A stretch of 64,000 nt of DNA. It comes from Variovorax sp. IB41. Its GTDB lineage: Bacteria > Pseudomonadota > Gammaproteobacteria > Burkholderiales > Burkholderiaceae_C. A model generated the notes under the pieces. The model searched no databases and was not told the origin of the DNA. It was given only the letters and a program-made list of their open reading frames with translations. The DNA lies in NCBI RefSeq assembly GCF_016405905.1, contig NZ_JAEFCB010000005.1, positions 186,001-250,000 of the forward strand, in the 5' to 3' direction. Positions 3,843-44,331 of the stretch are shown here, piece by piece; the stretch's first letter is position 1, and each line of letters begins with the position of its first letter. The translations under genes were made by a program, and so were the position numbers.

Positions 3843-5114
3843 TCACTCCGCATCGAGCCGGTCCCTTCGCATGGCACGCCAGAGCGCGAGGTCGTAGGCG
3901 ATCTTCAACAGCCCGCATGCGATGAGCGGCAGCGAAATCCATCCGGCTGCGAAGAGCGCGCCGCTCAAGGTCGGGCTGAGGGCCGCCGCCAGGCTGCGGG
4001 GCACCGCCGTGAAGCTGGCGGCCGCCGCGCGCTCTGGCGGCGTCACGACGGCCATCACGTAGGCAGTGCGCGTGGGAACGTCCATGGACGAGAGCGCGCT
4101 GCGGATCGTCAACAGCCCCAGCGCGATCGGCAGGTTGGGCGACAGCGCCGCGAGCACGAGGCAGACATTGGCCGGCAGGTGCGTGAAGACCATGGTGTTG
4201 AGCAACCCGATGCGCTGCGCGACCACCGGTGCCGCCAGTTGCGATGCGGCTCCCAGCAAGCCGGTCCAGAAGAAGAACACGCCGGCCTGCGTGAGAGAAA
4301 AGCCGAATCGCTCCAGGAGCCACAACGACATGAGCGCGTTGACCACCAGCCCGCCGGCGAACGCGTCGATGCTGAAGAGCGCGGCCAATCGAATCACGAC
4401 GGGGCGCGAAGGCCCCAGCGGTGCCGGCGCCACCGGCACGCGGCCCCCATCGTTCGCGCCGGCCTGGGCTGGAAGGCGCCGATAGATCCAGAAAACGATC
4501 AGGCCGATCACGGCATACACCACGAACATGCCGCGCAGTGCATCGATCCGCGCAAGCGCGCTGTGCCGCGCCAGCCAGTCCGGCACGGCAGCGGCCAGCG
4601 CGCCGAGCGCCGCGCTCAGCGCGCCCAGCAGGCTGTAGCGCGCGAAGAGGGCGGTCCGCGCATGGCCTTGGGCGGCCGCGGCGAGGCGGGCGTGCTCCAG
4701 GGGAAGAAACACGCTCACATCGCCCGAGCTGGGGTTGAGCGTGCCGACCAGCGCCACGACCAGCAGCGGCCAGAACGAGGACAGGCCCGCAAAGCCCAGG
4801 CCGGTGGCGGCCATCAGCAGCGCCGCGCCGCGCAGCAGTCGGCCGCCAGCGAACCGGTATCCCCAGGCGCCGACCGCGAGCGTGGCGAGCGCCGAGCCCA
4901 GCATCGTCGCGGTGCTGACGATGCCTACCTCCAGCGTCCCGAGGCCGATCGACAGCAGGTAGGCCGGCAGCAGCACCGCCATGTACCCGTCGGCGAAGGC
5001 GCGAAGCCCGCGCGCGACCAGCAAGGGCAGCGCCTCGGGGTCCACGCCGGGAGGCAGCAGGCGCGCGAGACCCGTGCGCGCGCGAGGCTCGGTAAGGGTG
5101 CGCATCGAAGGCAC
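3843..5114 (-). CDS. MFS transporter, second gene of the chrA operon
   Basis: 423 residues with about twelve hydrophobic segments and the major facilitator layout of two six-helix halves joined by a polar linker near residues 205-225. The ATG lies immediately after the stop codon of the upstream chrA gene (stop 5117-5115, ATG 5114-5112), so the two are surely co-transcribed and probably translationally coupled. The substrate cannot be read from sequence. The link to ChrA suggests an efflux role in oxyanion or metal stress, but this is inference from position only. Confidence 0.85.
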   Translation of the reverse strand: MPSMRTLTEPRARTGLARLLPPGVDPEALPLLVARGLRAFADGYMAVLLPAYLLSIGLGTLEVGIVSTATMLGSALATLAVGAWGYRFAGGRLLRGAALLMAATGLGFAGLSSFWPLLVVALVGTLNPSSGDVSVFLPLEHARLAAAAQGHARTALFARYSLLGALSAALGALAAAVPDWLARHSALARIDALRGMFVVYAVIGLIVFWIYRRLPAQAGANDGGRVPVAPAPLGPSRPVVIRLAALFSIDAFAGGLVVNALMSLWLLERFGFSLTQAGVFFFWTGLLGAASQLAAPVVAQRIGLLNTMVFTHLPANVCLVLAALSPNLPIALGLLTIRSALSSMDVPTRTAYVMAVVTPPERAAAASFTAVPRSLAAALSPTLSGALFAAGWISLPLIACGLLKIAYDLALWRAMRRDRLDAE

Positions 5115-6500
5115 CTAGCGCAGCACGGGCAGCCACAAGGTCACCGCCAACCCGATGGCCGCGCAGGCACCGAGCAGCGGCATCACGCCGACCTTGAAGC
5201 GGAACAAGGCAACGGCCGCCGCGACGGCAATCACCGCGGACACCGCGTCGAAGCGGCCGCCGAAGCCCTGCGGCCAGAGCACGTGGTACGCGAAGAAGAG
5301 CGCCAGGTTCAGGATCACGCCGACCACCGCCGCCGTGATCGCCGACAGCGGCGCGGTGAAGCCCAGCTTGCCGTGCGTGGCCTCGATGGCGGGCCCGCCC
5401 GCGAGGATGAAGACGAACGACGGCAGGAAGGTGAAGAAGGTCACGACCGTCGCGGCCAGCGCGCCCGCCAGGAACAGCGAATCCGGCCCCAGCACTTGTT
5501 GCAGCCATCCGCCGACGAAGCCGACGAAGGCCACCACCATGATGAGCGGACCGGGCGTCGTTTCGCCGAGGGCGAGCCCATCGATCATCTGTGCGCCCGA
5601 CAGCCACTGGTGGTGTTCGACGGCGCCCTGGTAGACGTAAGGCAGCACGGCGTAGGCGCCGCCGAAGGTCAGCAAGGCCGCCTTGGTGAAGAACCAGCCC
5701 ATCTGCGTGAGCGTGCCTTGCAGCCCCTGCGTGGCGATCAGCACGCCCATGGCCAGCAGCCACAGCGCAAGCCCGATCGCGAGCACCTTGAGCAGCCGCG
5801 CACGCGAGAAGCGCGCGTGCGGCGGCGTGGGCGTGTCGTCGTCGATCAGCGCCGGACCGTAGCTGTGTTTCGCGCTGCCATGCCCGCCACCGAGCGCGAA
5901 AACCCCGGGCGCCCAGCGCGCGCCGAAATGACCGATCAGGCCGGCTGCCAGCACGATCGCCGGAAAGGGCGTGCCGAACGCGAAGATCGCCACGAACGCG
6001 GCGGCGGCGATGCCCCACATCCACCGGTTCTTCAACGCGCGGCCGCCGATGCGATGCGCCGCGTGCAGCACCAGCGCGGTGACGGCCGGCTTGATGCCGT
6101 AGAAGATGCCGGCCACCACCGGCACATTGCCAAAGCGCAGGTAGATCCACGACAGCGCGATGAGGATGAACAGCGAAGGCAGCACGAACAGCACGCCCGC
6201 AACGATGCCGCCGCGCGTGCGGTGCATGAGCCAGCCGATGTAGGTGGCCAGCTGCTGGGCCTCGGGGCCGGGCAGCAGCATGCAGAAGTTCAGTGCGTGA
6301 AGAAAGCGCTTCTCGCTGATCCAGCGCCGCCGCTCGACCAGCTCGGTGTGCATGATCGCGATCTGCCCGGCAGGGCCGCCGAAGCTGATGAAGCCGAGCT
6401 TCAGCCAGAAGCGCAGGGCGTCTGCGAAGGAAACGGATTGGAGGGGCGCGGAGGGCGCGGGGGAGGCGTTGGTCGAGGCGTCGGGCGAGGCGGTGTCCAC
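5115..6500 (-). CDS. chrA: Chromate transporter (CHR family, two-domain)
   Basis: Inner-membrane CHR-family protein of about 461 residues. Both homologous halves show the family signature: first half GFISFGGPAGQIAIMH with LLPGPEAQQLATYIG, second half ALLTFGGAYAVLPYVYQG with GETTPGPLIMV. The long form with two halves is the classical proteobacterial ChrA, which expels chromate using the membrane potential. The frame is open to 6647, but a GTG at 6500 preceded by GGAG at good distance is the best start; upstream residues are low-complexity. It is first in an operon with an MFS gene. No chrB regulator or superoxide dismutase is next to it. Confidence 0.88.
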   Translation of the reverse strand: MDTASPDASTNASPAPSAPLQSVSFADALRFWLKLGFISFGGPAGQIAIMHTELVERRRWISEKRFLHALNFCMLLPGPEAQQLATYIGWLMHRTRGGIVAGVLFVLPSLFILIALSWIYLRFGNVPVVAGIFYGIKPAVTALVLHAAHRIGGRALKNRWMWGIAAAAFVAIFAFGTPFPAIVLAAGLIGHFGARWAPGVFALGGGHGSAKHSYGPALIDDDTPTPPHARFSRARLLKVLAIGLALWLLAMGVLIATQGLQGTLTQMGWFFTKAALLTFGGAYAVLPYVYQGAVEHHQWLSGAQMIDGLALGETTPGPLIMVVAFVGFVGGWLQQVLGPDSLFLAGALAATVVTFFTFLPSFVFILAGGPAIEATHGKLGFTAPLSAITAAVVGVILNLALFFAYHVLWPQGFGGRFDAVSAVIAVAAAVALFRFKVGVMPLLGACAAIGLAVTLWLPVLR

Positions 6501-6686
6501 GGAAGGCTCCGTTGTGAGGTCACCAGCGCTTGGACGGGACACCGTCTTGCTTTGCAGACCGGGAGGCTGTTTTCCCGATGGGCGGGATCGTAGCAGACCC
6601 GAAATAGCGAACCGCGATGCGTGCGGATCGCTCGGTCGCATCGGCAATGCGGGCGCGAAAGGAGCGCTCCTTCATGCCGATCTCGA

Positions 6687-8114
6687 TCACGCAGCACGAC
6701 CTTTCGCCGGGCTTCTGAGCAAGCTCACCACACTCCCTGCCAACGCAGCCAGAGCCCCCACCGCCAACCCCCAATGCACCGCGCTGTGCGACGGCATCAG
6801 CCCGAACATCAAGCTCATCAACAGACTGCCGAGCGTCAACCCCGTGAGCCGCGCAGTGCCTTGCGCGCCACCGGCCGCGCCGCTGCGTTCCTTGGGCGCC
6901 GAGAGCAGCATGTTCTGGTTGTTCGGCGTCTGAAAGAAACCGAAGCCCAGCCCTGCGAGGCTCGTGAAAATCGCGATCGGCAAGCCCGTGTTGCCATGCA
7001 GCGGCCACAACGCACACAGGGCCAGGCCGCTCGCGAAGCAGGCGCCTCCGGCCGCGCACAGCCAGGCGCTCGGCACGCGCTGGGCCAGGCGCGCCGACAG
7101 CGGCGCGGCCAACATCACCGCCAGCGGCCAGGGCGTCATCAGGAGGCCGGCGGTCACCGCGCTCTGGCCGAGTTCGTGCTGGATGTAGAACGGCAGCGCC
7201 ACAAGGGCCGCCATCTGGCCGGTGAAGCAGCACACCGAGGCAACGACCGAGACCCGAAACGAATGCACGCGCAGCAGGTCGAGCGGGATCAACGGTGCGG
7301 CCTTGGGCATCTCGCGCCGGACCAGCAGCACCATGCAAACGACCGACAGCACGAGCAGCGCGCCGCCGTGCAACGGTTGCGTCATCAGCCGGTCGCTCCC
7401 CAGCACGAAGGAAGCGAACATGACCGCGTTCAGCGCGATGCTCCACACATCGATGGAGCGCTCCGAGCGCGGCGGGTTGGGCAACCCTGCGCAGGCGGCG
7501 AGCACGAGCAGCCCGATCGGCAGATTCACCGCAAAGAGCCACGGCCAGCTCGCCGCGGAGAGTATGAACGCGCCAAGAGTCGGGCCCGCCGCCGAAGCGG
7601 CCGCGACGGCGAGCGCATTCCAGCCGATCGAGCGCGCCAGCAATCGGCGCGGATAGGTGAAGCGCAACAACGCCAGCCCGAGCGGCATCACGGCCGCGCT
7701 GCCCAGGCCCTGAAGGCACCGCGCGGCCACGAGCCATGGCAGCGACGGGGCCACCGCGCACAGCACCGATGCCGCGGTGAACAGCGCGACGCCGCCGGCG
7801 AACACGCGCCGGTACCCGAACCGCTCCCCGATGGCGGAAGCCGGCAACAGGAACATGACGACAGCCAGCTGGTAGGCCGTGATGATCCACACGGCATCGG
7901 CCGGTGTCGCCTGCAATTGCTGCGCGATGTTCGGCAGCGCGATGTTGGCGATGGCGCCGTCGAGTACCACGAGCACACCCGCGCCCAGGATCGCGGCGAC
8001 GGCGGCGAAGCGCCGCGGCAGGGGCAGGCCGTCGGCGTCGTTCACCGCTGGGGGTTCGACGGTGCGGGCAATGGCGGAAGAAGAAGGGTTGGTTCGAAAC
8101 GTGGATGACAACAT
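6687..8114 (-). CDS. MFS drug transporter, DHA2 (EmrB/QacA) family
   Basis: 475 residues with about fourteen predicted membrane helices. Motif A is seen as GERFGYRRVFAGG, and the N-terminal segment LDGAIANIALPNIAQQL is the hallmark of the 14-helix DHA2 drug:proton antiporters. The ATG at 8114 is preferred; the frame runs on to 8300 without a better start. It is divergent from a LysR gene 140 bp away, so that regulator is the likely controller. Probable function is proton-driven export of a toxic organic compound; the substrate is unknown. No EmrA-type adaptor gene is nearby. Confidence 0.88.
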   Translation of the reverse strand: MLSSTFRTNPSSSAIARTVEPPAVNDADGLPLPRRFAAVAAILGAGVLVVLDGAIANIALPNIAQQLQATPADAVWIITAYQLAVVMFLLPASAIGERFGYRRVFAGGVALFTAASVLCAVAPSLPWLVAARCLQGLGSAAVMPLGLALLRFTYPRRLLARSIGWNALAVAAASAAGPTLGAFILSAASWPWLFAVNLPIGLLVLAACAGLPNPPRSERSIDVWSIALNAVMFASFVLGSDRLMTQPLHGGALLVLSVVCMVLLVRREMPKAAPLIPLDLLRVHSFRVSVVASVCCFTGQMAALVALPFYIQHELGQSAVTAGLLMTPWPLAVMLAAPLSARLAQRVPSAWLCAAGGACFASGLALCALWPLHGNTGLPIAIFTSLAGLGFGFFQTPNNQNMLLSAPKERSGAAGGAQGTARLTGLTLGSLLMSLMFGLMPSHSAVHWGLAVGALAALAGSVVSLLRSPAKGRAA

Positions 8115-27251: not shown

Positions 27252-30200
27252 TCACGGGGCGAGAGAAGTGTCGACTTCCCAGGAAGCGTGCAGACCGTCG
27301 ATGCCGAGTTGACGCTTGCAGACGGTGCGGCCTCCGGCAAGGTCCAGCGCTACTTCCAGCGTCCAGCCTTTGGACTCATCTTCTTCTTTCGCGATGCGGA
27401 CGGTCGCGAAGCCATCTGTGGTGCCTTTGGCGATGGTGGTGACATGACCGTCGATCTGCCGCTGTCCCAATCGCAGGGTCACCGGGCCGTCGAGCCAAAA
27501 GTCCTCGGGCACGGCATTGGCGAAGGGCCAGGGCGCGTACAGACCCGACGAAACGATCGAGATCACCTCGACCGTGCCATGCGCTCCTTGCATCGACAAG
27601 CTGGAGACGCTCGACATGTGGCGATCGCCGGAAAGCAGGATGACCTGGCGCGTGGGCGCATCGCGCAGCAGCTCGAGCAGGTCGAACTGCGACCGCGGAT
27701 ATCCGTTCCAGTCGTCGAGCTCCACGCATTCGGCCGTGGCGCCGAACACGGCACGACGCTGGAGCGGCAGCATGGCCACCGAGGAGGCGATGAACAGGGG
27801 CTGGTCGCCTGGCACGTTGGCCAGCAGCGCCTTCAATTGCACGGCGTCGAATGCCTTGTTGATGAGTGCCTCGGCAACGGGCTTGGCCTTCGCACTGGCA
27901 CGCAACGCCCGCGGCTGCCGAAGGCTGCGGGTGTCCAGCATGAGGAATGGAAAGCCGCCCGCGGCCAGACCGTAACTCAGTGACCCGTTCGCGAGGCCTT
28001 CGCCTTGCCATGTGTGCTGGTTGCTGCGGTATGCGTGAAGCGCTTCCCGCTCCAGGTCCGTCGTCGTCGGCCGAGGCTCCCAACCGTCCTCGACCTCGTG
28101 ATCGTCCAGCATGGGATAGGTCGGGAGCCGGCGGGTCAGGGCGCGCCAGGCCTGAAGCCCGAAGCCTTGCACGTACGCACGGTTCACGTCATCCACGCCG
28201 GCCTGGTAGAGCCCGGCTCGCTCGTCGACATAGACCTGGTCGCCCACGAGCAGGAGCAGTTGCGGGCGGCGGTCCGGGGCTGCCGCATCGATGTGATCGA
28301 CCAGGCGTTTGCACGACGCCTGCGCTGGGTCGCCGTCCAGCAGGCCCGGCGGATACTGGCAGCTGGCGATCGCGAAACTCAGCACCGTGGCCTGATCGAA
28401 AGGCAGCATGGCCGCGCCGATCCATGCCGGGTCGAGCCGGACCACGGCGGCGTCGATGTTCTTCGCGTCGAGGCTGCCTTGCACCGGATCCGGCCGCACG
28501 GTCAGGCGATCCCGGACCTTCCGCTCGATCTCGGGGTCGTCGGGTCCCATGGCGGGCAGGTCGAAGGGGCCGTCGACGATCTTCCACATCGCAACATCGA
28601 TGCTTCGTTGGTCCGGCAAGTCGTTGTGCAGCGTCACCACGGCGAAGCCGTCGTAGTCAGCCAATCGGTCGGGCCGCAGCAGCACCTGCAGCGCTTCGGC
28701 GCGGAGTTTGTCGTTCGTCGTGCTCTCGCCCACCATCTTGTCGAAGCTGAAGTTCCAGTCGCTTGCGACCCGCTTGGCCGGCACGTAGAAGACGGCCAGC
28801 GAGTTCGCGCGCGCTGGCGACGGTGCGATGGCGATCCGGCAACGCAGCCGTGCGGCCGCACCGGCGCCCTTGCGGTCCGCGCGGCCCAGTACGGGTCCCC
28901 GCCATGGCCATTCGGCGCGGTACTCGGGCGGCTCGTCCTGCGTGACGGGCGCAGCGAGGTTCTTGAACTCGTCGAGGAAGCGGACGATGCCAGGGAAGAT
29001 GTCGCGACCTGCGTTCTCGCCGATGAGGCAGTCCTGGTGCCCATACTCGGCCAGCACCATCAGCTGCTGGCGGCGGCTCGTGCTGAATCGCAGCAGATCG
29101 CCGGGCGTCGTCGGTGGTTGCTCGCGCCAGTCCTTCTTCTTGGAGAAGACTCCGCGCAGCAGGACGAAGCTGTCCCAGGCACCTTTCCAGTCGAAGACGG
29201 CGTTCTGCCTTCCATGAACGAGCAGCACCGGGAATGCGAACTGCCTGGCCAGGGACTCTTGCGTGACCACCGTGTTCATGCCCTCGGCGTCGGTGAGCAA
29301 CTGCTCGCGGGCGAAGTGACTCACCTGCGCGAGTCCCTTGACCGTGACCCACCCGTAGATGTCGGCCAGCGATCGCAGCGTCTTGGGGCCGATGTTCTTC
29401 AGGCGCATCGTCTGGCCGAAGATGCCGTCGGCGCGGTGGCGCACGGCAGCGAATTCCGATGCATCGACGGTGGGGTTCGCGTGCGCGTCGCCATCGCCGT
29501 CGGGGTACGGAAAAGTCGTCAGCACGGCGTCGACCAGGAAGGTTGCGGGCGAGCGCTCCGCGGCCACATCGAACTGCTCGACGCCGATGAACTGCTGCAG
29601 GTAGCTGGCCAGGTAGCCGCGGAACCGGTTCATCGGGCTTGCGCGCAGCAGGGGCCCTACCTGCGACAGAACCACCGCCCCGATCGATTCGTGCAGCGTC
29701 CGGTTGCGCAGGCTCTCGACGCAGAACATGGCGGACCCGATGCAATGCGCCACGACATCGACACGGGCGTCTTTCGAATCCCGCCTGACTTGCGCGATGG
29801 CCGCTGGGATGTCCAGCTTCGCGACTTCCTCGAAGGGCCAGTACGTGCGCTGCTCCAGGCCGATGCTCGTGCGCAGGTCCAGCACCCACACATGCCGGCG
29901 CGCCTCCAGCAGCGTCTGCACCAGATTGCGAGGGATGCTCGGATGGGCGAAGGTCGAGCCGCTCGCGCCGTAGCCATGGATCAGGAGCACGGGCCTGAGG
30001 GCGGCATCGGGCGATTCCGGCATTTCGGGTGTGTAGTGCGCCAGCTGGCAGCGTGGCGGGGGTTCGCTGCCGCCCGGAGTCGGGGCCGGGGCCGGGGCTG
30101 GGGCTGGGGCTGGGTTGGGGGCGTCGTGCACGTCGCTCACGTCGGGGATGACCGCGCCGACCTTTCCGGGTTTGCGCCCGTCCGATTTGGGCTGGTCGGG

Positions 30201-32771
30201 CAGCGGGGGAGGGAGGAAGTTCACCAGATGGATCCGGAGGATCACGCGCAGCAGCCACAGGGCGAGCTCGGCGAGGTCGCCCAGGGCATTGGGTGCATCC
30301 TGTTGCTTGGAGATGGTGAGCAACGGCTTCATCTGCTCGACGAAGTAGTCGAGGTCTACATGCAGGCGTCCCAGGTGTGCCATGTGCCCCAGGGAGCCAC
30401 GACCGTGAAGTTGAAGCTCGCCCTCGCTGAGCTGGCGCCATGGATTGCCGCGGTCGCCGGCGATGAGTTCCAGGCGCTTGGTCAACTCGAGCGTCTGGCC
30501 TGGTTGGAGCGGCGCCAGCGGTGATGCCGCGACGACCGTCCAGGTGTAACGGAGCAACCGGACTTCCCCGAAATGCGAAGCGAGCCGCCGTAGCAATGTG
30601 CGGGTGCAGATCGTTTCGTTCAGATCGAAATCGAGCGCGGCCTTGACCTTGTCTCGGACCAGATCCTTCACGCGCCGCACGCGCTGTCTCGGCAGCGATG
30701 CCTCGCGCGGGAGCAGCGACACGGTGCCTTCGCATCGCATCGTCGTGGACTTGCCGTCTGCTGTGGTGAGCCGAAGCTCGACCGAGGGCTGGACGAGGCG
30801 TCTTCGAAGGTGCCGCAGGTCTTGGATGTCTGCGGGCGCGAAGGCCACGTCTGCCTCCAATGCGAAGGGGGTCTTGTCGATCACGATGTCGCCGCACAGG
30901 CGCTCGACGATGGTCACGCTGGTCGGCTTGGGAGGGGACGCCTGCGACCTGTCCCGACGTGCAGGACGTGGCACAGGCTGCAGGACGGTGCTGCCGCGCA
31001 GGCGCAGCTTCCAGCTCTTGGCGAGGACCGGCAGGGCACGCTCCGCAAGCGCTGCGATCGTCAATGCGGGGTTGATGCCCAATGAGGTCGGCACGATCGA
31101 GCCGTCCAGCACGGCCAGGCCGTCCACGTAGGTCGATGCGCTGCCGGTCTCCGCATACACCCGGCCGTGTGAATCGACGACACCGTCGCCTCCGGGTTCG
31201 CTCATCGGGCAGCCTCCCAGCGGATGCACGGTGGTCGCCCCGAGTCTCAGATCGCCCAGTTCCCCGAGCTCTGGCAGCGGCTTCCACAGCGGGTTGGGCA
31301 GGACTCTGCCGCCCAGGCCTCCCAATCCCCGATGCGCCTCCCGCAAGGCAGCCATCTGCTGTTCGAACACGGCGGCCTGGGCGACGTTTCCCCAATCGAT
31401 CCGCGTACGGCCGTCGGTGAGCAGATCGTCGTTCGCGGCCAGCGCGATCTTTCCTTGTGCACCGTCGTCGCCCATCATCCCGTACACCGAGGTGTGGTCC
31501 AGCGCATGGTCGTTCACCGCCATCGGGTCGATGCCGCCGGCATGTTCGTCGTGGGTCGTTCCATCGAATTCCGGCAGCGAATGGAGGGCGTCCATCGTCG
31601 TGACGACCTCCCCGAAAAGCCGCCGCAGCGGCGCCGGTATGCCGAATTCCTCGATGACGATTGGAAGGCCCGTCGTCGCCTTGCGCAGCAGGCCGGTGAT
31701 GGTGGGGCCGACGTCGCGATCTTTCGGGGGCTCGCTTTCCATCGCGCTCGCGTGCGCGGGCCTGTTCTGGCGGTGCGCCACGGCGATGAGGTCGCCGTTG
31801 GTGGAAAAGCGTGTCCCCAGGCCGTCCGCGCGGATGGGCAGTCCCGCCGATTGCGAGCGCAGCAGGAATTCGGTGGACCCCAGGGCGCCCGCGGCAAGGA
31901 TGACGTGGCGCGCGCGCACGGTGTAAGGCCGGTCGCGATCGGCGCGTGTCTTGGCCGTGTCGGTGAGGAAGAAGTCCACCGCGTAGCCGTTCGGCACGGT
32001 CATGAGCCGGTGTGCCGTGGCGCCGCAGAAGAGGCGGGCTCCGTTGGCCTGTGCGAGGGCCAGGTAGTTGGTGTCCAGGGACTTCTTCGCGCGGTGATTG
32101 CAGCCTGTCACGCAATCACCGCACCTCAGGCACGCATGCATGTCGACGCCCGCTGGCGTAGTGCCTCCTCCGAAGTCGATGGCCAGCCAGGCCTTGCGGC
32201 GCTCGTACGCCACCATCTGGTGCCCGGCGCGCAACAGCGAATCGAGCTTCGGCACGCTGCCGGGCATCTGCTCGGGTGCCAGCATCGTCTTCGCGGCGCG
32301 GTACCCGTTCTCGAGCGCGCCGACCCGAAAATCCTTGGGCCAGTGCGGGTCCATGAAGGCATCCGCCGAGGGCTCCTCCATGACGGCCGCGTTGATGAGC
32401 GAGCCGCCGCCGAGCCCGTTGCCGAGCACGACGTTGACGTTGCCCAGGCGCAGGTCGAAGAGGCCCGTGGGGCGGCCGCGGGCGGGGCTTCCGTCCTGTT
32501 TGGAGAAGCGCACGTGGCCGGGCATCTCGGCGAAGGTGCCCGGAAACTCTCCCGGAAGGTACTCGTTGCCGCGCTCCAGCACATAGACCCGGATCGCTTC
32601 GCCGCTGGCTTCGGAAGTGGCGCCTGCCAGTCGGGCGGCCGCGACCGCGCCACCGTAACCGCTGCCGATGATCAGCACGTCGCAGTGGAAGGCCGTGGGG
32701 TCCTGTTCGATGTCCTCGATCAGCACCTCGGCGCCGGAGGACAACCAACGGTCGTGGGCTTGTACGGTCAT
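27252..32771 (-). CDS. Three-module enzyme: GMC oxidoreductase, Cys-nucleophile alpha/beta hydrolase, PhoD-like phosphatase
   Basis: 1,839 residues in one uninterrupted frame. Residues about 30-585 are a GMC (cholesterol oxidase-like) flavoprotein: FAD-binding VLIIGSGYGGAVAAARLA, HPLGGCPMS and GINPALTIAALAERA. They include an iron-sulfur-like cluster CLRCGDCVTGC (214-224). Residues about 600-860 are an unassigned beta-rich region. After a Pro-Ala linker (APAPAPAPTP, about 890-900), residues about 925-1270 are an alpha/beta hydrolase (LLIHGYGASG) whose nucleophile elbow reads AHCIGS, with Cys in place of Ser as in PHA synthases. Residues about 1460-1830 are PhoD-like metallophosphatase (GDQVYVDE, LDDHEVEDGW, LSGDRHMSS). 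No signal peptide. It lies 36 bp after the sensor kinase gene, probably in one operon. Confidence 0.85.
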   Translation of the reverse strand: MTVQAHDRWLSSGAEVLIEDIEQDPTAFHCDVLIIGSGYGGAVAAARLAGATSEASGEAIRVYVLERGNEYLPGEFPGTFAEMPGHVRFSKQDGSPARGRPTGLFDLRLGNVNVVLGNGLGGGSLINAAVMEEPSADAFMDPHWPKDFRVGALENGYRAAKTMLAPEQMPGSVPKLDSLLRAGHQMVAYERRKAWLAIDFGGGTTPAGVDMHACLRCGDCVTGCNHRAKKSLDTNYLALAQANGARLFCGATAHRLMTVPNGYAVDFFLTDTAKTRADRDRPYTVRARHVILAAGALGSTEFLLRSQSAGLPIRADGLGTRFSTNGDLIAVAHRQNRPAHASAMESEPPKDRDVGPTITGLLRKATTGLPIVIEEFGIPAPLRRLFGEVVTTMDALHSLPEFDGTTHDEHAGGIDPMAVNDHALDHTSVYGMMGDDGAQGKIALAANDDLLTDGRTRIDWGNVAQAAVFEQQMAALREAHRGLGGLGGRVLPNPLWKPLPELGELGDLRLGATTVHPLGGCPMSEPGGDGVVDSHGRVYAETGSASTYVDGLAVLDGSIVPTSLGINPALTIAALAERALPVLAKSWKLRLRGSTVLQPVPRPARRDRSQASPPKPTSVTIVERLCGDIVIDKTPFALEADVAFAPADIQDLRHLRRRLVQPSVELRLTTADGKSTTMRCEGTVSLLPREASLPRQRVRRVKDLVRDKVKAALDFDLNETICTRTLLRRLASHFGEVRLLRYTWTVVAASPLAPLQPGQTLELTKRLELIAGDRGNPWRQLSEGELQLHGRGSLGHMAHLGRLHVDLDYFVEQMKPLLTISKQQDAPNALGDLAELALWLLRVILRIHLVNFLPPPLPDQPKSDGRKPGKVGAVIPDVSDVHDAPNPAPAPAPAPAPTPGGSEPPPRCQLAHYTPEMPESPDAALRPVLLIHGYGASGSTFAHPSIPRNLVQTLLEARRHVWVLDLRTSIGLEQRTYWPFEEVAKLDIPAAIAQVRRDSKDARVDVVAHCIGSAMFCVESLRNRTLHESIGAVVLSQVGPLLRASPMNRFRGYLASYLQQFIGVEQFDVAAERSPATFLVDAVLTTFPYPDGDGDAHANPTVDASEFAAVRHRADGIFGQTMRLKNIGPKTLRSLADIYGWVTVKGLAQVSHFAREQLLTDAEGMNTVVTQESLARQFAFPVLLVHGRQNAVFDWKGAWDSFVLLRGVFSKKKDWREQPPTTPGDLLRFSTSRRQQLMVLAEYGHQDCLIGENAGRDIFPGIVRFLDEFKNLAAPVTQDEPPEYRAEWPWRGPVLGRADRKGAGAAARLRCRIAIAPSPARANSLAVFYVPAKRVASDWNFSFDKMVGESTTNDKLRAEALQVLLRPDRLADYDGFAVVTLHNDLPDQRSIDVAMWKIVDGPFDLPAMGPDDPEIERKVRDRLTVRPDPVQGSLDAKNIDAAVVRLDPAWIGAAMLPFDQATVLSFAIASCQYPPGLLDGDPAQASCKRLVDHIDAAAPDRRPQLLLLVGDQVYVDERAGLYQAGVDDVNRAYVQGFGLQAWRALTRRLPTYPMLDDHEVEDGWEPRPTTTDLEREALHAYRSNQHTWQGEGLANGSLSYGLAAGGFPFLMLDTRSLRQPRALRASAKAKPVAEALINKAFDAVQLKALLANVPGDQPLFIASSVAMLPLQRRAVFGATAECVELDDWNGYPRSQFDLLELLRDAPTRQVILLSGDRHMSSVSSLSMQGAHGTVEVISIVSSGLYAPWPFANAVPEDFWLDGPVTLRLGQRQIDGHVTTIAKGTTDGFATVRIAKEEDESKGWTLEVALDLAGGRTVCKRQLGIDGLHASWEVDTSLAP

Positions 32772-32807: not shown

Positions 32808-34571
32808 TCACTGTCTGGCGGAGATCGCCGCGGCGAGGGCGCCGCCCAGGGTGGGTGAGTCCACCGGTTTGCGCAGCAGCAGCAATCCTTGCCGGTCTGC
32901 GGCGGTGACCAGCGCCTCGTCGCGATCGGCACTGACCATCACCACGGCCAGGTCGGGTTGCGCATCGCGAAGGCGCGCGATGGCCGCAAATCCGTCGGCA
33001 CCGTTGCCGAGGCGGAAATCGATCACGGCGGCATCGCATGGGCTGCTGTGAATCGCATCGGTGGCTTCATCGAGGGTGGATGCGGCGAACGCGCGGCATC
33101 CCATGGCGCCCAGGGCGTTGACGTAGGCGCCGCGCACCATCGCATCGTCGTCCAGCACCAGGACTCGTCGTCCCGCCAGGCTCCAGCGCAACTCGGGTAC
33201 GTCGTCGAGGTCGTGTGTTGCGTCAGCCAGGGGCAGGGTGATCCGGAAGGTGCTGCCCACGCCCGGGGTCGAGTCCAGGTGGATCGGTACCTGCAGCAGT
33301 TCGGCCATGCGCCGCACGATGCCCAGGCCGAGGCCATGGCCTGCTGGCGCCGGTGTGCCCGCGCGCTGCAAACGAACCAGGTCCTCGAAGATCACGGCGT
33401 GGTGCTCGGTCGCGATGCCCAGGCCCGTGTCGCGGATGGCGATCTCTACATCGGCTGTGCGGGCTGAAGCGGTCAGGTCGACACGGCCGCCGCGCGGCGT
33501 GAACTTGATCGCGTTGTCGACCAGGTTGGCCAGGATGCGCCGCAGCAGGTCGGGGTCGGACACGACGGCGATGCCGTCGGGGCATTGCAGGGCGAGGCCC
33601 ACGCCCTCGTCGTGTGCGCGGGCGTTGAAGCTCGCCGTTATCGCGGTGAGCAGCCGATCCAGTTGCACGCGGCGCGGCTGCGCGAGCACGACGCCGGCGT
33701 CCAGCTTGGAGACATCGAGCAGGGCGTCGAGCATGGAGCACAACTGCGCGAGGCTCGCGTCCAGCACGTCGGATACCTCGCGCGCCTCCTGGCCCATGGA
33801 GAGGCCGCGCAGGGCTCCTGCGTTGAGGGTAAGGGCTTGCAGGGGCTGCCTCAGGTCGTGACTTGCGGCCGCGAGGAATCTGCTCTTGTCGTGGTTGGCC
33901 TTGACCGCGGTGTCGCGTGCGATGGCCAGCTGTGCGCGTTCGTGCTCGAGGCTTTTGGCCAACTCCTCGTTCTCCTGGCGGATGAGGAAGGATTCCTCGA
34001 AGGTCTGCAGGTTGCGCCGGGCGAAGCGGATCTGCACGCCGAAGAACATCAGCACCAATGCCGCGACACCCAGGCCCAGCCAGGTGCCCGAGAGCAGCCA
34101 CATGAATGCGGTGGGAACGAACAGAAAGCCCGCGTAGGCGAGGAATGCGCGCATCACGGTCGAACTGGTCGACACGGCGCCCGCGCCCCATGACACCAGG
34201 ATCATGGTGAGGACTGCATCGAGCAGGGGTTCCAGCCATCCCATGAACAGCGCCGCGGAGCCGTTGCAGGCACCGATGAGGAGGTTCCAGCGCACGACTG
34301 CCGTGAGCCGGCGGCGAATGGGGCGCTTGCGATCGGCGACCAGTCGTGCGAGGGCTTTGGCGCGCACTTCGCGGCTGACGATGACGGCCGTCACCCACGC
34401 GAGCGCGGCGATCGGATGCACGGAGTTCCAGACGATGGCAACGACGATGGTGGCCGTGAGGACGATCTGCCAGCGCAGGCCCAGGGCCTGCTCCGCCACC
34501 ACCTGCAGCCGCCTCTCGTCGAGCTCCAGTGCAGCGGAGGCCGACACGGACGGGGCCGCAGCGGCGTTCAT
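32808..34571 (-). CDS. Hybrid sensor histidine kinase with C-terminal receiver
   Basis: 587 residues. About five to six membrane helices occupy residues 30-180. A coiled coil leads to a HisKA domain with the phospho-acceptor H238 in AAASHDLRQPLQ, then an ATPase domain with the N box (LVDNAIKF) and G boxes (DTGLGI, GHGLGLGIVRR). A receiver domain follows from about 468, with acidic pair LDDD and phospho-acceptor D518 (AVIDFRLG). The ATG overlaps the stop of the upstream response regulator (ATGA), so the two are translationally coupled. It is followed 36 bp later by the three-module enzyme. The signal is unknown; no periplasmic sensor domain is apparent. Confidence 0.9.
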   Translation of the reverse strand: MNAAAAPSVSASAALELDERRLQVVAEQALGLRWQIVLTATIVVAIVWNSVHPIAALAWVTAVIVSREVRAKALARLVADRKRPIRRRLTAVVRWNLLIGACNGSAALFMGWLEPLLDAVLTMILVSWGAGAVSTSSTVMRAFLAYAGFLFVPTAFMWLLSGTWLGLGVAALVLMFFGVQIRFARRNLQTFEESFLIRQENEELAKSLEHERAQLAIARDTAVKANHDKSRFLAAASHDLRQPLQALTLNAGALRGLSMGQEAREVSDVLDASLAQLCSMLDALLDVSKLDAGVVLAQPRRVQLDRLLTAITASFNARAHDEGVGLALQCPDGIAVVSDPDLLRRILANLVDNAIKFTPRGGRVDLTASARTADVEIAIRDTGLGIATEHHAVIFEDLVRLQRAGTPAPAGHGLGLGIVRRMAELLQVPIHLDSTPGVGSTFRITLPLADATHDLDDVPELRWSLAGRRVLVLDDDAMVRGAYVNALGAMGCRAFAASTLDEATDAIHSSPCDAAVIDFRLGNGADGFAAIARLRDAQPDLAVVMVSADRDEALVTAADRQGLLLLRKPVDSPTLGGALAAAISARQ

Positions 34572-35251
34572 GGGTTGTCCAGTGCGGCGGCGGCCTGGGC
34601 ATCGAACACGCGGCACAGCGCATCGGTGCGGTTGCGCGCACCCAGGGCGCGGTAGACCATGGACAGGTGCACTTTCACGGTGCCCTCGGCGATCTGCAGC
34701 TGGCGTGCGATCAGCTTGACCGGGGTGCCGCGGATGGCCAGTGCGAGGACCTGGCGCTGGCGGGGCGACAGCTCGACGCGAAGGAAGCGGGCGAGATCCT
34801 CGCGGGGGAGCTCATCGGCTTGCCGGGCGCGTGTGACGTCGTCCGAAAGGACGAACTCCGCGGGCAGGTAGATGCGGTGACGCAGCACTACGCGCAGGGC
34901 CGCTTCCATGTCTTGGAGCCGGTAGGACTTCGGGATGAAGCCGGCGGCGCCGGCTTCGATGATTTCTCGCACCCGCGCCGGTGTCGTCTCCGCCGACTGC
35001 ATGCACACGGGGGTGCCTTCGAAGTGGGTTCTGACCGCCCGCAGTGCCTCCAGGCCGGACACCGTGGGGAGGTGGTAGTCCAGGAGGATCAGGTCGAAAT
35101 CCGCTGCATCGAACCGGCAGGCTGTCTCGACGTCGCGCACGGCCTGAAAGGCGAAGGGCTCGTCGGGTGCGAGATCGGCAGCGACCTGCTCCAGCAGCCG
35201 GCTGGTGCCGTTCCACACGATCTCATGGTCATCCACCAGCAGTATTCGCAT
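34568..35251 (-). CDS. LuxR/FixJ-type response regulator
   Basis: 227 residues. Receiver domain with MRILLVDDHE, phospho-acceptor D58 (DLILLDYHLP) and Lys in GFIPKSYRLQD. The C-terminal LuxR helix-turn-helix (LSPRQRQVLALAIRGTPVKL, then EGTVKVHLSMVYRALGARNR) spans about 160-215. First gene of the operon RR-kinase-enzyme. It is divergent from a secreted EDSGS-repeat protein across 267 bp that contain two CCTAGG palindromes, likely binding sites for this regulator. Confidence 0.92.
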   Translation of the reverse strand: MRILLVDDHEIVWNGTSRLLEQVAADLAPDEPFAFQAVRDVETACRFDAADFDLILLDYHLPTVSGLEALRAVRTHFEGTPVCMQSAETTPARVREIIEAGAAGFIPKSYRLQDMEAALRVVLRHRIYLPAEFVLSDDVTRARQADELPREDLARFLRVELSPRQRQVLALAIRGTPVKLIARQLQIAEGTVKVHLSMVYRALGARNRTDALCRVFDAQAAAALDNP

Positions 35252-42047: not shown

Positions 42048-42635
42048 CTACCCATTTTTTGCTTCAGACGGCGAAATTTCCGGTCCGTGCGTATCTTTTT
42101 CATTAACGGAGCTCTGAGCGACCCCTTCTTTAATCTGTGACATTCGGAGAGCGTCTAAAACTTCGTTTGTCTGGTTTTGTGTCTCGCCGTTAATTCGCAT
42201 GACCGCCTCAATCGCAATTGCTTCTGAGCCCTCAATAATTTGAGATTTGGCATCGAGCATGCCGCTCGCCGGTGGCAAAGGCTGCCGATGAAGTAATTCA
42301 ACCAGTCGAACTAGGCCGGCAACACTTTCTGATGATCGCAACGTCCGGGTGTCGGTTGAAATCAAAGTCCCGTCTGATGTGGTGACTGCCGTCGGATGTG
42401 CTTGATCCAAATCAGCGTCAGATTGGGATTTTAACCATCCGTATAAGGACGCGCCTAGTGCTGCGAAAGCAAACAATAATAAAGCCAAACCTGCCATATT
42501 ACCCGTGGCTAGCAGAATGGTCGTGCAAATAAGAGAAATGGCAGCGACGCCAATAAGAGCCACAAGTACAACTTGGCTGCGAATTGGTTTTACTCCAACA
42601 TGCGCCTTGAAATCTGCGGAGGCGTTTGCGTCCAT
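42048..42635 (-). CDS. Two-helix membrane protein, last gene of a low-GC operon
   Basis: 195 residues. Two adjacent hydrophobic helices (VVLVALIGVAAISLICTTIL and NMAGLALLLFAFAALGASLY, about residues 22-65) are followed by a polar cytoplasmic domain with LRSSESVAGLVRLVELLHRQ and EAVMRINGETQNQTNEVLDA, probably coiled coil. AT-rich codons differ from neighbouring blocks. The start codon overlaps the stop of the upstream gene by one base (TAATG), which implies coupling. Family unrecognised. Confidence 0.7.
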   Translation of the reverse strand: MDANASADFKAHVGVKPIRSQVVLVALIGVAAISLICTTILLATGNMAGLALLLFAFAALGASLYGWLKSQSDADLDQAHPTAVTTSDGTLISTDTRTLRSSESVAGLVRLVELLHRQPLPPASGMLDAKSQIIEGSEAIAIEAVMRINGETQNQTNEVLDALRMSQIKEGVAQSSVNEKDTHGPEISPSEAKNG

Positions 42636-43156
42636 TATTCGCCTCGATCTTCCAGGGAGATACCACCTGAGCTATGTTGCGTTGCAATAAATGGCTGAGG
42701 AAAATGGAGATGAGCCCATTCGTACTTACTCAGAAAAAGCTGCAGGACTTTTGATAGGCCGCCCGCATATCGAATCGAAGTGGTCTTATCGATAACGCAA
42801 TTTGTCATTTCAAAATTTGTCGATGCCATAATTAGCACGCAATTATCGAATCGACAGCCAGAAAATCTGTAACCGTCTAAGTGGATGGTCTTTCCATTAA
42901 AGTACAAGCCCGTTGCTTCAGGGCGGGCAAGTGCATTCAATAAACCGAAATTAGTTGGAATATTTTCGCGATTATTTCTGGTGCTCGCTTGAAGAAATTT
43001 CGCCAGATTGTTTGCGTTTTCGTTCGTCAATTTTTCCTCACTCTGTTTCACGTGGCGCCGATTCTGCCTCCTGCGGCGCATAGCACCTAGCATTATTTGG
43101 TCGTGCCACATACGCCGTATGAACGCGAAGTGATCGGGATCTGTTGAACCAAACAT
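42635..43156 (-). CDS. Pentapeptide-like single-coil protein, middle gene of a low-GC operon
   Basis: 173 residues. A basic N terminus (GAMRRRRQNRRHVK) is followed by ENANNLAKFLQASTRNNREN, then a beta-helix turn IHLDGYRFSGCRFDNCVLIM, with NFEMTNCVIDK in the next rung. Phe/Leu every fifth residue and stacked Cys mark a short pentapeptide-like beta helix. The C-terminal LSKVLQLFLSKYE resembles the tail of this family. It is coupled to the downstream two-helix protein. Function unknown. Confidence 0.7.
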   Translation of the reverse strand: MFGSTDPDHFAFIRRMWHDQIMLGAMRRRRQNRRHVKQSEEKLTNENANNLAKFLQASTRNNRENIPTNFGLLNALARPEATGLYFNGKTIHLDGYRFSGCRFDNCVLIMASTNFEMTNCVIDKTTSIRYAGGLSKVLQLFLSKYEWAHLHFPQPFIATQHSSGGISLEDRGE

Positions 43157-43224
43157 TTACGTTCATTCTTCTGCGTAGTCGTGCGTCCACAGCAGCACGT
43201 CGTCGTCACTGAACCGGATTCAGA

Positions 43225-44331
43225 TTATTTGCTAGGGGCTAGATTTTTTACAAGATTCATTAACTGCTCCGCACCCTCAAAGGTTGGCGGTATTTTTTCA
43301 TCTGAACCGACAATGCTGGAAAAAATAATGGCATCAAACTTATTCAGAAGTTCGTTGTTGGTTTTTCTCGCTTCTATGGCAAATTTTGTATAGCTTTCTA
43401 CAAACTGACACAGCGTGAGTCGCAACTCAAGTTGAAGTATTTGGGAGCGAGTTGAATCCGAATTGCGCATGACAATTCTAAAGAAATAAAGAAATATCAA
43501 AACTAAAGAAATTGCTGGAATAGTCGTTGCAGCCAGCATCGGCCATTGTGAAATTATATTAATATTATTTGATGTAATGTGATGAAATTCAAATCCAATT
43601 GGGGCAAGGACTAATATCCCAAAAAAAGCTATTAGACCCCTGAGTATCTTTAGCTGGGAGTTTTTCTTCTTCAGTAAGCTTTTAAAACCGTCGGCTAGCC
43701 CTACAAAGTTTAGCTCCTGTTCATGGCGAGATAGATTTTTTTGAAGCACATCGACTTTTTGAGTGCTGTTTGTCAGGATTTTTTCCCAGTCCGTAAATTT
43801 GCTCTCAATTTCTGCAGAGTATTGCCGCAGGTTCCTGAAATTTTTTAGATCTGGGTCATTTAGTACAAATTTGGCAACTAAAAGGCTAATGCGTTCTTCC
43901 AGTTTTTTAATTTGATTTGCGTATTGCGGCAGAAAATTTTCAACCGTCGCCTTCATAAACTCATTAAATGAGCTAAGCTCTGAGGGAAGTTCATCGGCTG
44001 GTGAATAAGTGAGATCAAATTCCAGTGATAGTCGGTATAAATGAATAGCAAGCCGTTCTAGCCAATCTCCGAATTCATTTCCACTTCTAGGTTTCAAGGC
44101 GCCAAGAAACGCTTCTTTGCCGTTTTGGATTGAGTATTGGCATGCGTCATCGAATGCGGCTGCATTGGCTTCACCTGTGAGGATGCGTAAGAAAATTGAA
44201 ACCTGGTTGGCCAGCCCTTGAAAAAAGTCATTGCCCGAGATTTGCTTTTCAATCGCCTCCACTTCTGTCAGTGCCCGGTTGATAGCTAAGCGAGTATCTG
44301 GATTCACGAAGAAATCTTGTTTTGTTGTCAT
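43225..44331 (-). CDS. Coiled-coil protein with two central membrane helices (low-GC island)
   Basis: 368 residues, strongly AT-rich codons. Residues 1-150 are helical (RLAINRALTEVEAIEKQISG, then LSLEFDLTYSPADELPSELS). Residues 140-230 contain long coiled coils (NQIKKLEERISLLVAKFVLN, FTDWEKILTNSTQKVDVLQK). Two membrane helices follow at about 235-255 (LRGLIAFFGILVLAPIGFEF) and 270-290 (MLAATTIPAISLVLIFLYFF). The last 80 residues are again helical. No enzyme motif is seen. The architecture fits membrane effectors or sensors of defence modules, but that is a guess from shape only. Confidence 0.75.
   Translation of the reverse strand: MTTKQDFFVNPDTRLAINRALTEVEAIEKQISGNDFFQGLANQVSIFLRILTGEANAAAFDDACQYSIQNGKEAFLGALKPRSGNEFGDWLERLAIHLYRLSLEFDLTYSPADELPSELSSFNEFMKATVENFLPQYANQIKKLEERISLLVAKFVLNDPDLKNFRNLRQYSAEIESKFTDWEKILTNSTQKVDVLQKNLSRHEQELNFVGLADGFKSLLKKKNSQLKILRGLIAFFGILVLAPIGFEFHHITSNNINIISQWPMLAATTIPAISLVLIFLYFFRIVMRNSDSTRSQILQLELRLTLCQFVESYTKFAIEARKTNNELLNKFDAIIFSSIVGSDEKIPPTFEGAEQLMNLVKNLAPSK

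Follow-up and report, generated by a model that had tools for sequence, protein, structure and literature searches.

The window analysed here, a stretch of 64,000 nucleotides from Variovorax sp. IB41, raises the question of whether three enzymes (a GMC flavoprotein, an alpha/beta hydrolase with Cys in its nucleophile elbow and a PhoD-like phosphatase) are truly joined in a single protein, and whether alcohol oxidation, acyl transfer and phosphoester cleavage could then act in sequence on one lipid-like substrate, as had been proposed from the sequence alone (the original prediction).

A fusion protein of four regions

ORF 27252-32771 lies on the minus strand and runs for 1,839 residues without interruption, from an ATG at 32771 with AAGGAG seven bases 5' of it; its coding sequence (27255..32771, minus strand) is conserved in homologues. 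The predicted order of enzymes was confirmed by a Pfam domain search that identified GMC_oxred_N/C (E 1e-11/8e-13), Abhydrolase_1 (3e-8) and PhoD (1e-16), all above cut-off, but the three-enzyme description had omitted a fourth region without annotation (residues ~600-905, the middle domain or MID); the full order is GMC-MID-ABH-PhoD, ABH being the alpha/beta hydrolase. The motifs lie at residues 214-224 (CLRCGDCVTGC, GMC part), 1008-1013 (AHCIGS, elbow of ABH), 1510 (GDQVY), 1556 (DDHEVEDG) and 1715 (GDRH); the predicted Cys cluster and elbow Cys are both present and, like the fusion itself, are kept among homologues. The possibility of a sequencing error joining frames, or of another frame artefact, is ruled out by conservation: homologues 50-96% identical, in 12 named Variovorax records as well as further genomes, have the same order and no internal stops. 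Recurrence of these parts in distant bacteria, whether fused or in adjacent genes, is a further reason to consider the fusion real. No description of a GMC/ABH/PhoD fusion was found in the open-access literature, and no phage families were found. AlphaFold models of residues 1-925 and 640-1839 had pLDDT values of 45 and 43, respectively, and active-site geometry (triad, cluster) was therefore not read from them.

The GMC flavoprotein domain (residues 27-585; 31017..32693, minus strand) belongs to the GMC oxidoreductases by virtue of its FAD GxGxxG motif (GSGYGG, of which GSGYG is invariant) and of Pfam matches to the GMC N and C domains that exceed the cut-off, and its active-site pair, His516 and Asn567, is invariant in the homologue alignment (A4). 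Its nearest solved relative is cholesterol oxidase; assignment to that enzyme (NCBIfam NF058674, ChoxAB) was rejected at 139.7 bits, against an equivalog cut-off of 850. The Cys loop CLRCGDCVTGC (32100..32132, minus strand) provides four probable Fe-S ligands, C214, C217, C220 and C224, which are invariant among fused proteins, and some stand-alone GMC relatives lose the second Cys only, leaving C-x5-C-x3-C. The [3Fe-4S] ligands of the Burkholderia glucose dehydrogenase BcGDH are Cys212/218/222 (PMC6719666). BcGDH-like Fe-S GMC dehydrogenases were defined by C-x5-C-x3-C near position 212 and a bound cluster within about 13 A of the FAD; the fusion protein has this spacing in C214, C220 and C224. 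Compared with 4Fe-4S ferredoxins, the loop profile matched a multi-cluster protein best (3e-7) and a clostridial-type ferredoxin at 0.003, and two homologues have weak Fer4 Pfam matches. Given the BcGDH-like spacing, the ferredoxin-like loop and the lack of any Cys at the loop position in Streptomyces-type cholesterol oxidase, an Fe-S-relay dehydrogenase appears likelier than a plain oxidase for the GMC part.

MID (residues 600-905; 30057..30974, minus strand), a domain of ~300 residues between GMC and ABH, belongs to no Pfam family, and a Pro-Ala linker encoded by a tandem 12-base repeat (30081..30114, minus strand) lies at its junction with ABH. Elsewhere, MID is found as a gene of its own, fused to a patatin-like phospholipase, and, in a Rhodococcus polyketide cluster, as a weak match (30-32 bits) in the terminal part of an acyl carrier protein (ACP)-thioester reductase whose gene adjoins that of an ABH. 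Its partners, patatin phospholipase and ACP-thioester reductase, suggest that MID binds a lipid or acyl chain. The MID profile matched no PDB sequence at E 10; a Foldseek search with the model of residues 1-925 gave a weak match of MID to a GID4-type barrel, which is a lead only because the underlying model is of low confidence. The polyketide clusters of Rhodococcus plasmids (L125, 6605-9969, and L127) comprise ACP-thioester reductase, a Cys-Asn hydrolase of the ABH family, crotonyl-CoA carboxylase/reductase and glycosyltransferases.

The PhoD-type phosphoesterase domain (residues 1456-1839; 27255..28406, minus strand) scores 61 bits against a Pfam cut-off of 27 and, by comparison with PMC4223295, has most of the Fe and Ca ligand motifs: the Fe-ligand Cys and Tyr (C1471, Y1514) along with D1511, D1556, D1557, D1716 and H1718. 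Of the PhoD motifs predicted to be intact, GDQVY and GDRH are present, but DDHEVEDG has Gly where other PhoD-bearing homologues examined have Asn/Asp, the Asn-Asn (or Asp/Asn) Ca ligands that follow DDHE elsewhere being D1562-G1563 in the window protein. Gly at this probable Ca-ligand position (1563) is shared by the window protein and L002, a 96% sister and its nearest relative, alone; the other full homologues examined have Asn or Asp. Assigned by spacing only, D1562-G1563 corresponds to Asn271/272 of Bacillus subtilis PhoD, and Gly1563 to N272; the C180A, D265A, N271A, N272A and D436A variants of that enzyme lose activity (PMC4223295). The PhoD part of the window copy may, on the evidence of its residues, be weakened. 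Exemplars of the PhoD family act on teichoic acid and phospholipids. Features of Tat export are not seen: PhoD is here an internal C-terminal domain, and the N-terminus of the protein (MTVQAHDRWLSSG) has no signal by eye.

A cysteine-asparagine alpha/beta hydrolase

The ABH domain (residues 915-1285; 28917..30029, minus strand) resembles acid lipases by Pfam and profile matches, the best among solved structures in hmmsearch being gastric lipase (E 6e-17) and lysosomal acid lipase (5e-14). In an alignment to dog gastric lipase (residues counted), the nucleophile-elbow Cys1010 (AHCIGS; codon 29742..29744) falls on Ser153, Asn1190 (HGRQN; codon 29202..29204) on Asp324 at the catalytic-acid position, and His1245 (YGHQD; codon 29037..29039) on His353, all three codons being on the minus strand. 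Ser153, Asp324 and His353 form the catalytic triad of gastric lipase. Full membership of the acid lipase family was rejected: the core homology is present, but Cys1010 replaces the Ser nucleophile and Asn1190 the Asp acid. Of the 57 distinct full ABH sequences, 56 carry the combination Cys-Asn-His-Asp, as do 19 of the 20 clusters formed at 50% identity; the sequences represent Pseudomonadota, Actinomycetota, Bacteroidota and Spirochaetota. The Asp two residues past the His also occurs in Ser lipases, and is therefore by itself no substitute for the lost acid. A stand-alone ABH paralogue of 390 residues (L118/L130, in G784) has Gly at the nucleophile position and retains the Asn, His and Asp, and is possibly a pseudoenzyme.

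A Cys elbow alone is not new, because PHA synthases and dienelactone hydrolases are already known as Cys enzymes of the alpha/beta hydrolase fold, with Asp, which PHA synthases use as the acid. PHA synthase was rejected as an assignment for ABH, as TIGR01836 gives 15-20 bits against 365 in two homologues and does not appear among the window protein's matches at E 0.001, and Asn occupies the acid position. For the acid-lipase branch, no description of Cys paired with Asn was found in the open-access literature. Papain-type proteases possess Cys-His-Asn (PMC6642262). Tentatively, and at rather less than an even chance, the ABH proteins may be natural cysteine lipases or acyltransferases of the acid-lipase branch, with a papain-like Cys-His-Asn triad, housed within an Fe-S flavoenzyme/phosphoesterase megaenzyme.

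Distribution, stages of fusion and operon context

A protein scan of genome contigs identified 13 loci, all in Variovorax, 12 of which span nearly the entire protein at 50-96% identity. Among ~60 same-genus genomes, the full PhoD-bearing fusion is present in about 11 and GMC-MID-ABH without PhoD in about six more; the fusion gene is an accessory gene, patchy within the genus. The full fusion is also encoded on Ensifer plasmids and in other proteobacteria, and public annotation labels such proteins 'alpha/beta fold hydrolase' or 'GMC oxidoreductase'. GMC-MID-ABH proteins are found in Leptospira, Bernardetia, Rhizobium, Azospirillum and others, the majority without PhoD; PhoD is the next gene in G511 and, weakly, in G301. 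Separate adjoining genes encode ABH, MID and GMC (G340), GMC and MID-ABH (G081), or ABH, an acetoacetate-decarboxylase-like protein, patatin-MID and GMC (G784). The existence of the domains as separate genes had been expected to count against the original prediction, and such homologues do exist, but the genes adjoin, so their separation supports a functional link or shared pathway. A phosphoesterase is also a recurrent partner, since calcineurin-type genes adjoin unfused forms in Azospirillum (weak match) and G274. Unfused clusters (L131, 4921-10267; L103, 6094-9741) contain ABH, an acetoacetate-decarboxylase-like protein (Pfam-tested in L131) and patatin-MID, with GMC in L131. The family offers natural stages on the way from separate genes to one fused, multi-enzyme protein.

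In a tree of 38 rows, all PhoD-fused proteins are on one branch (SH-aLRT 100), the sole non-fused row there being that of G511, with PhoD as the next gene, and label changes number 2, versus 12.7 in shuffles. A single origin of the PhoD fusion is likely on this tree, but not proven, because the midpoint root serves the drawing alone, two of the rows sit on long branches and the search was quick. The predicted phosphoester cleavage is thus not a general part of the sequence of reactions, PhoD being limited to one clade.

The fusion is the last gene of a conserved operon, all on one strand, that begins with a LuxR-type response regulator (34568..35251, minus strand), followed by a hybrid sensor histidine kinase with HisKA, HATPase and receiver domains (NahK/ErcS-like; 32808..34571, minus strand), which has about six hydrophobic segments by eye and a start overlapping the regulator's stop (ATGA), and then by 36 bases. 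All 12 Variovorax loci with sufficient flanking sequence have the regulator/kinase pair. Diverged pairs lie beside full fusions in G014, G092 and G243, and also beside some two-part homologues; beside the full fusions of G259 and G040, only the kinase was seen. Across 37 same-genus genomes, a close response regulator (81% or more) occurs only in three, all with a close fusion; the others have at most 46%. A promoter scan gave nothing above chance. Expression is probably set by the upstream response regulator and membrane sensor kinase. Elsewhere in the window, three minus-strand ORFs at 42048-44331 have 43.6% GC within a region of ~67% GC, probably a foreign insertion, and positions 4001-8000 have strong AT skew (0.33 and 0.25) at 68-71% GC.

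This arrangement also allows that the fusion makes or removes a lipid-like signal sensed by the kinase, signal enzyme and sensor being encoded in one operon. The shared orientation of the fusion, the regulator and a hybrid kinase bearing several hydrophobic segments, the ATGA overlap and the recurrence of the pair with diverged homologues in other genera are consistent with such a role, yet it is unlikely: the Ensifer homologues have no such pair but an adenylate-cyclase/AAA type neighbour, or none seen, many two-part homologues are without the pair, and sensors of catabolic substrates would appear identical.

Possible functions and comparison with known systems

The recurrence of the same parts, fused or adjacent, in distant bacteria indicates that the fusion probably processes a lipid. 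That it is a cytoplasmic, regulated or inducible, multi-step lipid-processing protein is the preferred reading, with chances we consider even; confidence in any particular substrate is lower. The GMC part, as an Fe-S-containing FAD alcohol dehydrogenase, would oxidise a hydroxyl of a lipid-like substrate and pass electrons via the Fe-S cluster to an acceptor; MID would hold the lipid between active sites; ABH, as a cysteine-type relative of acid lipases, would use its Cys-His-Asn triad to cleave or transfer an acyl group by way of a Cys acyl-enzyme; and the PhoD part would remove a phosphate or head group. The lipid-like character of the predicted substrate accords with the nearest solved relatives, cholesterol oxidase and acid lipase, and with the fusion of MID to patatin phospholipase and, weakly, its presence in thioester reductase; that a single such substrate serves all sites is possible. 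The family may couple Fe-S GMC chemistry with acyl chemistry and with phosphoester cleavage.

The same relatives could instead point to degradation of sterols or steryl esters, in which ABH frees the sterol from its ester, as expected of a relative of gastric/lysosomal acid lipase (cholesteryl ester hydrolase), and GMC oxidises the 3-hydroxyl like cholesterol oxidase. Although ChoxAB is the best NCBIfam match, its score of 140 against a cut-off of 850, the replaced acid-lipase triad and a phosphoesterase left unexplained make this role quite improbable. None of 29 Variovorax genomes yielded a squalene-hopene cyclase, which makes an endogenous hopanoid substrate unlikely as well. Least probable is the breakdown of beta-hydroxyacyl esters or polyesters (oxidation of the beta-hydroxyl by GMC, cleavage of an acyl or C-C bond by the Cys enzyme as in PHA-type enzymes, and completion by a decarboxylase in unfused clusters). 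In its favour, an acetoacetate-decarboxylase-like gene separates ABH from patatin-MID in one unfused cluster, ABH matches PHA synthases weakly, and in Rhizobium a gene for a PHA synthase subunit lies at a distance of about 6 kb; but every PHA family match is far under cut-off, no PHA gene was found beside the Variovorax operon, and PhoD is again unexplained.

The fusion has partial counterparts in several known systems. The alpha subunit of the B. cepacia FAD glucose dehydrogenase (6A2U; PMC6719666) is likewise a GMC enzyme with Cys 212/218/222 in the same spacing as, and at nearly identical positions to, 214/220/224, but the fusion has an extra Cys217, giving CxxCxxCxxxC, and no hitchhiker or cytochrome subunit gene was seen beside it. 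The GMC-type cholesterol oxidases (1MXT, 1COY) and ChoxAB share the GMC family and the HPLGGC and NP motifs and provide the best PDB match, but 1MXT-type proteins are without the Cys loop. B. subtilis PhoD and Streptomyces chromofuscus phospholipase D (2YEQ; PMC4223295) have the Cys, Asp, Tyr, Asp-Asp and terminal Asp/His motif residues in common with the window protein, in which, however, PhoD is a C-terminal fusion part with no visible Tat signal and the second Asn-Asn ligand is Gly. Gastric and lysosomal acid lipases (1HLG, 1K8Q, 6V7N), the best profile match of ABH, share its DVWL..R, D-x-PA and H-x-D motifs and its His, whereas ABH has Cys for Ser153 and Asn for Asp324, sits in a larger redox fusion and has no secretion signal that could be seen. 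PHA synthases are similar in their Cys nucleophile on an alpha/beta hydrolase fold, with weak sequence matches to ABH. A cysteine-lipase derived from CALB by laboratory evolution (Cen et al., 2019; PMC6642262), whose authors asked whether nature has such enzymes, also has Cys in a lipase elbow, but it is laboratory-made and Cys-His-Asp, whereas the ABH family occurs in nature, carries Asn in place of the acid and supplies many candidate natural cysteine lipases, with the accompanying Asp-to-Asn change, in cultured soil bacteria.
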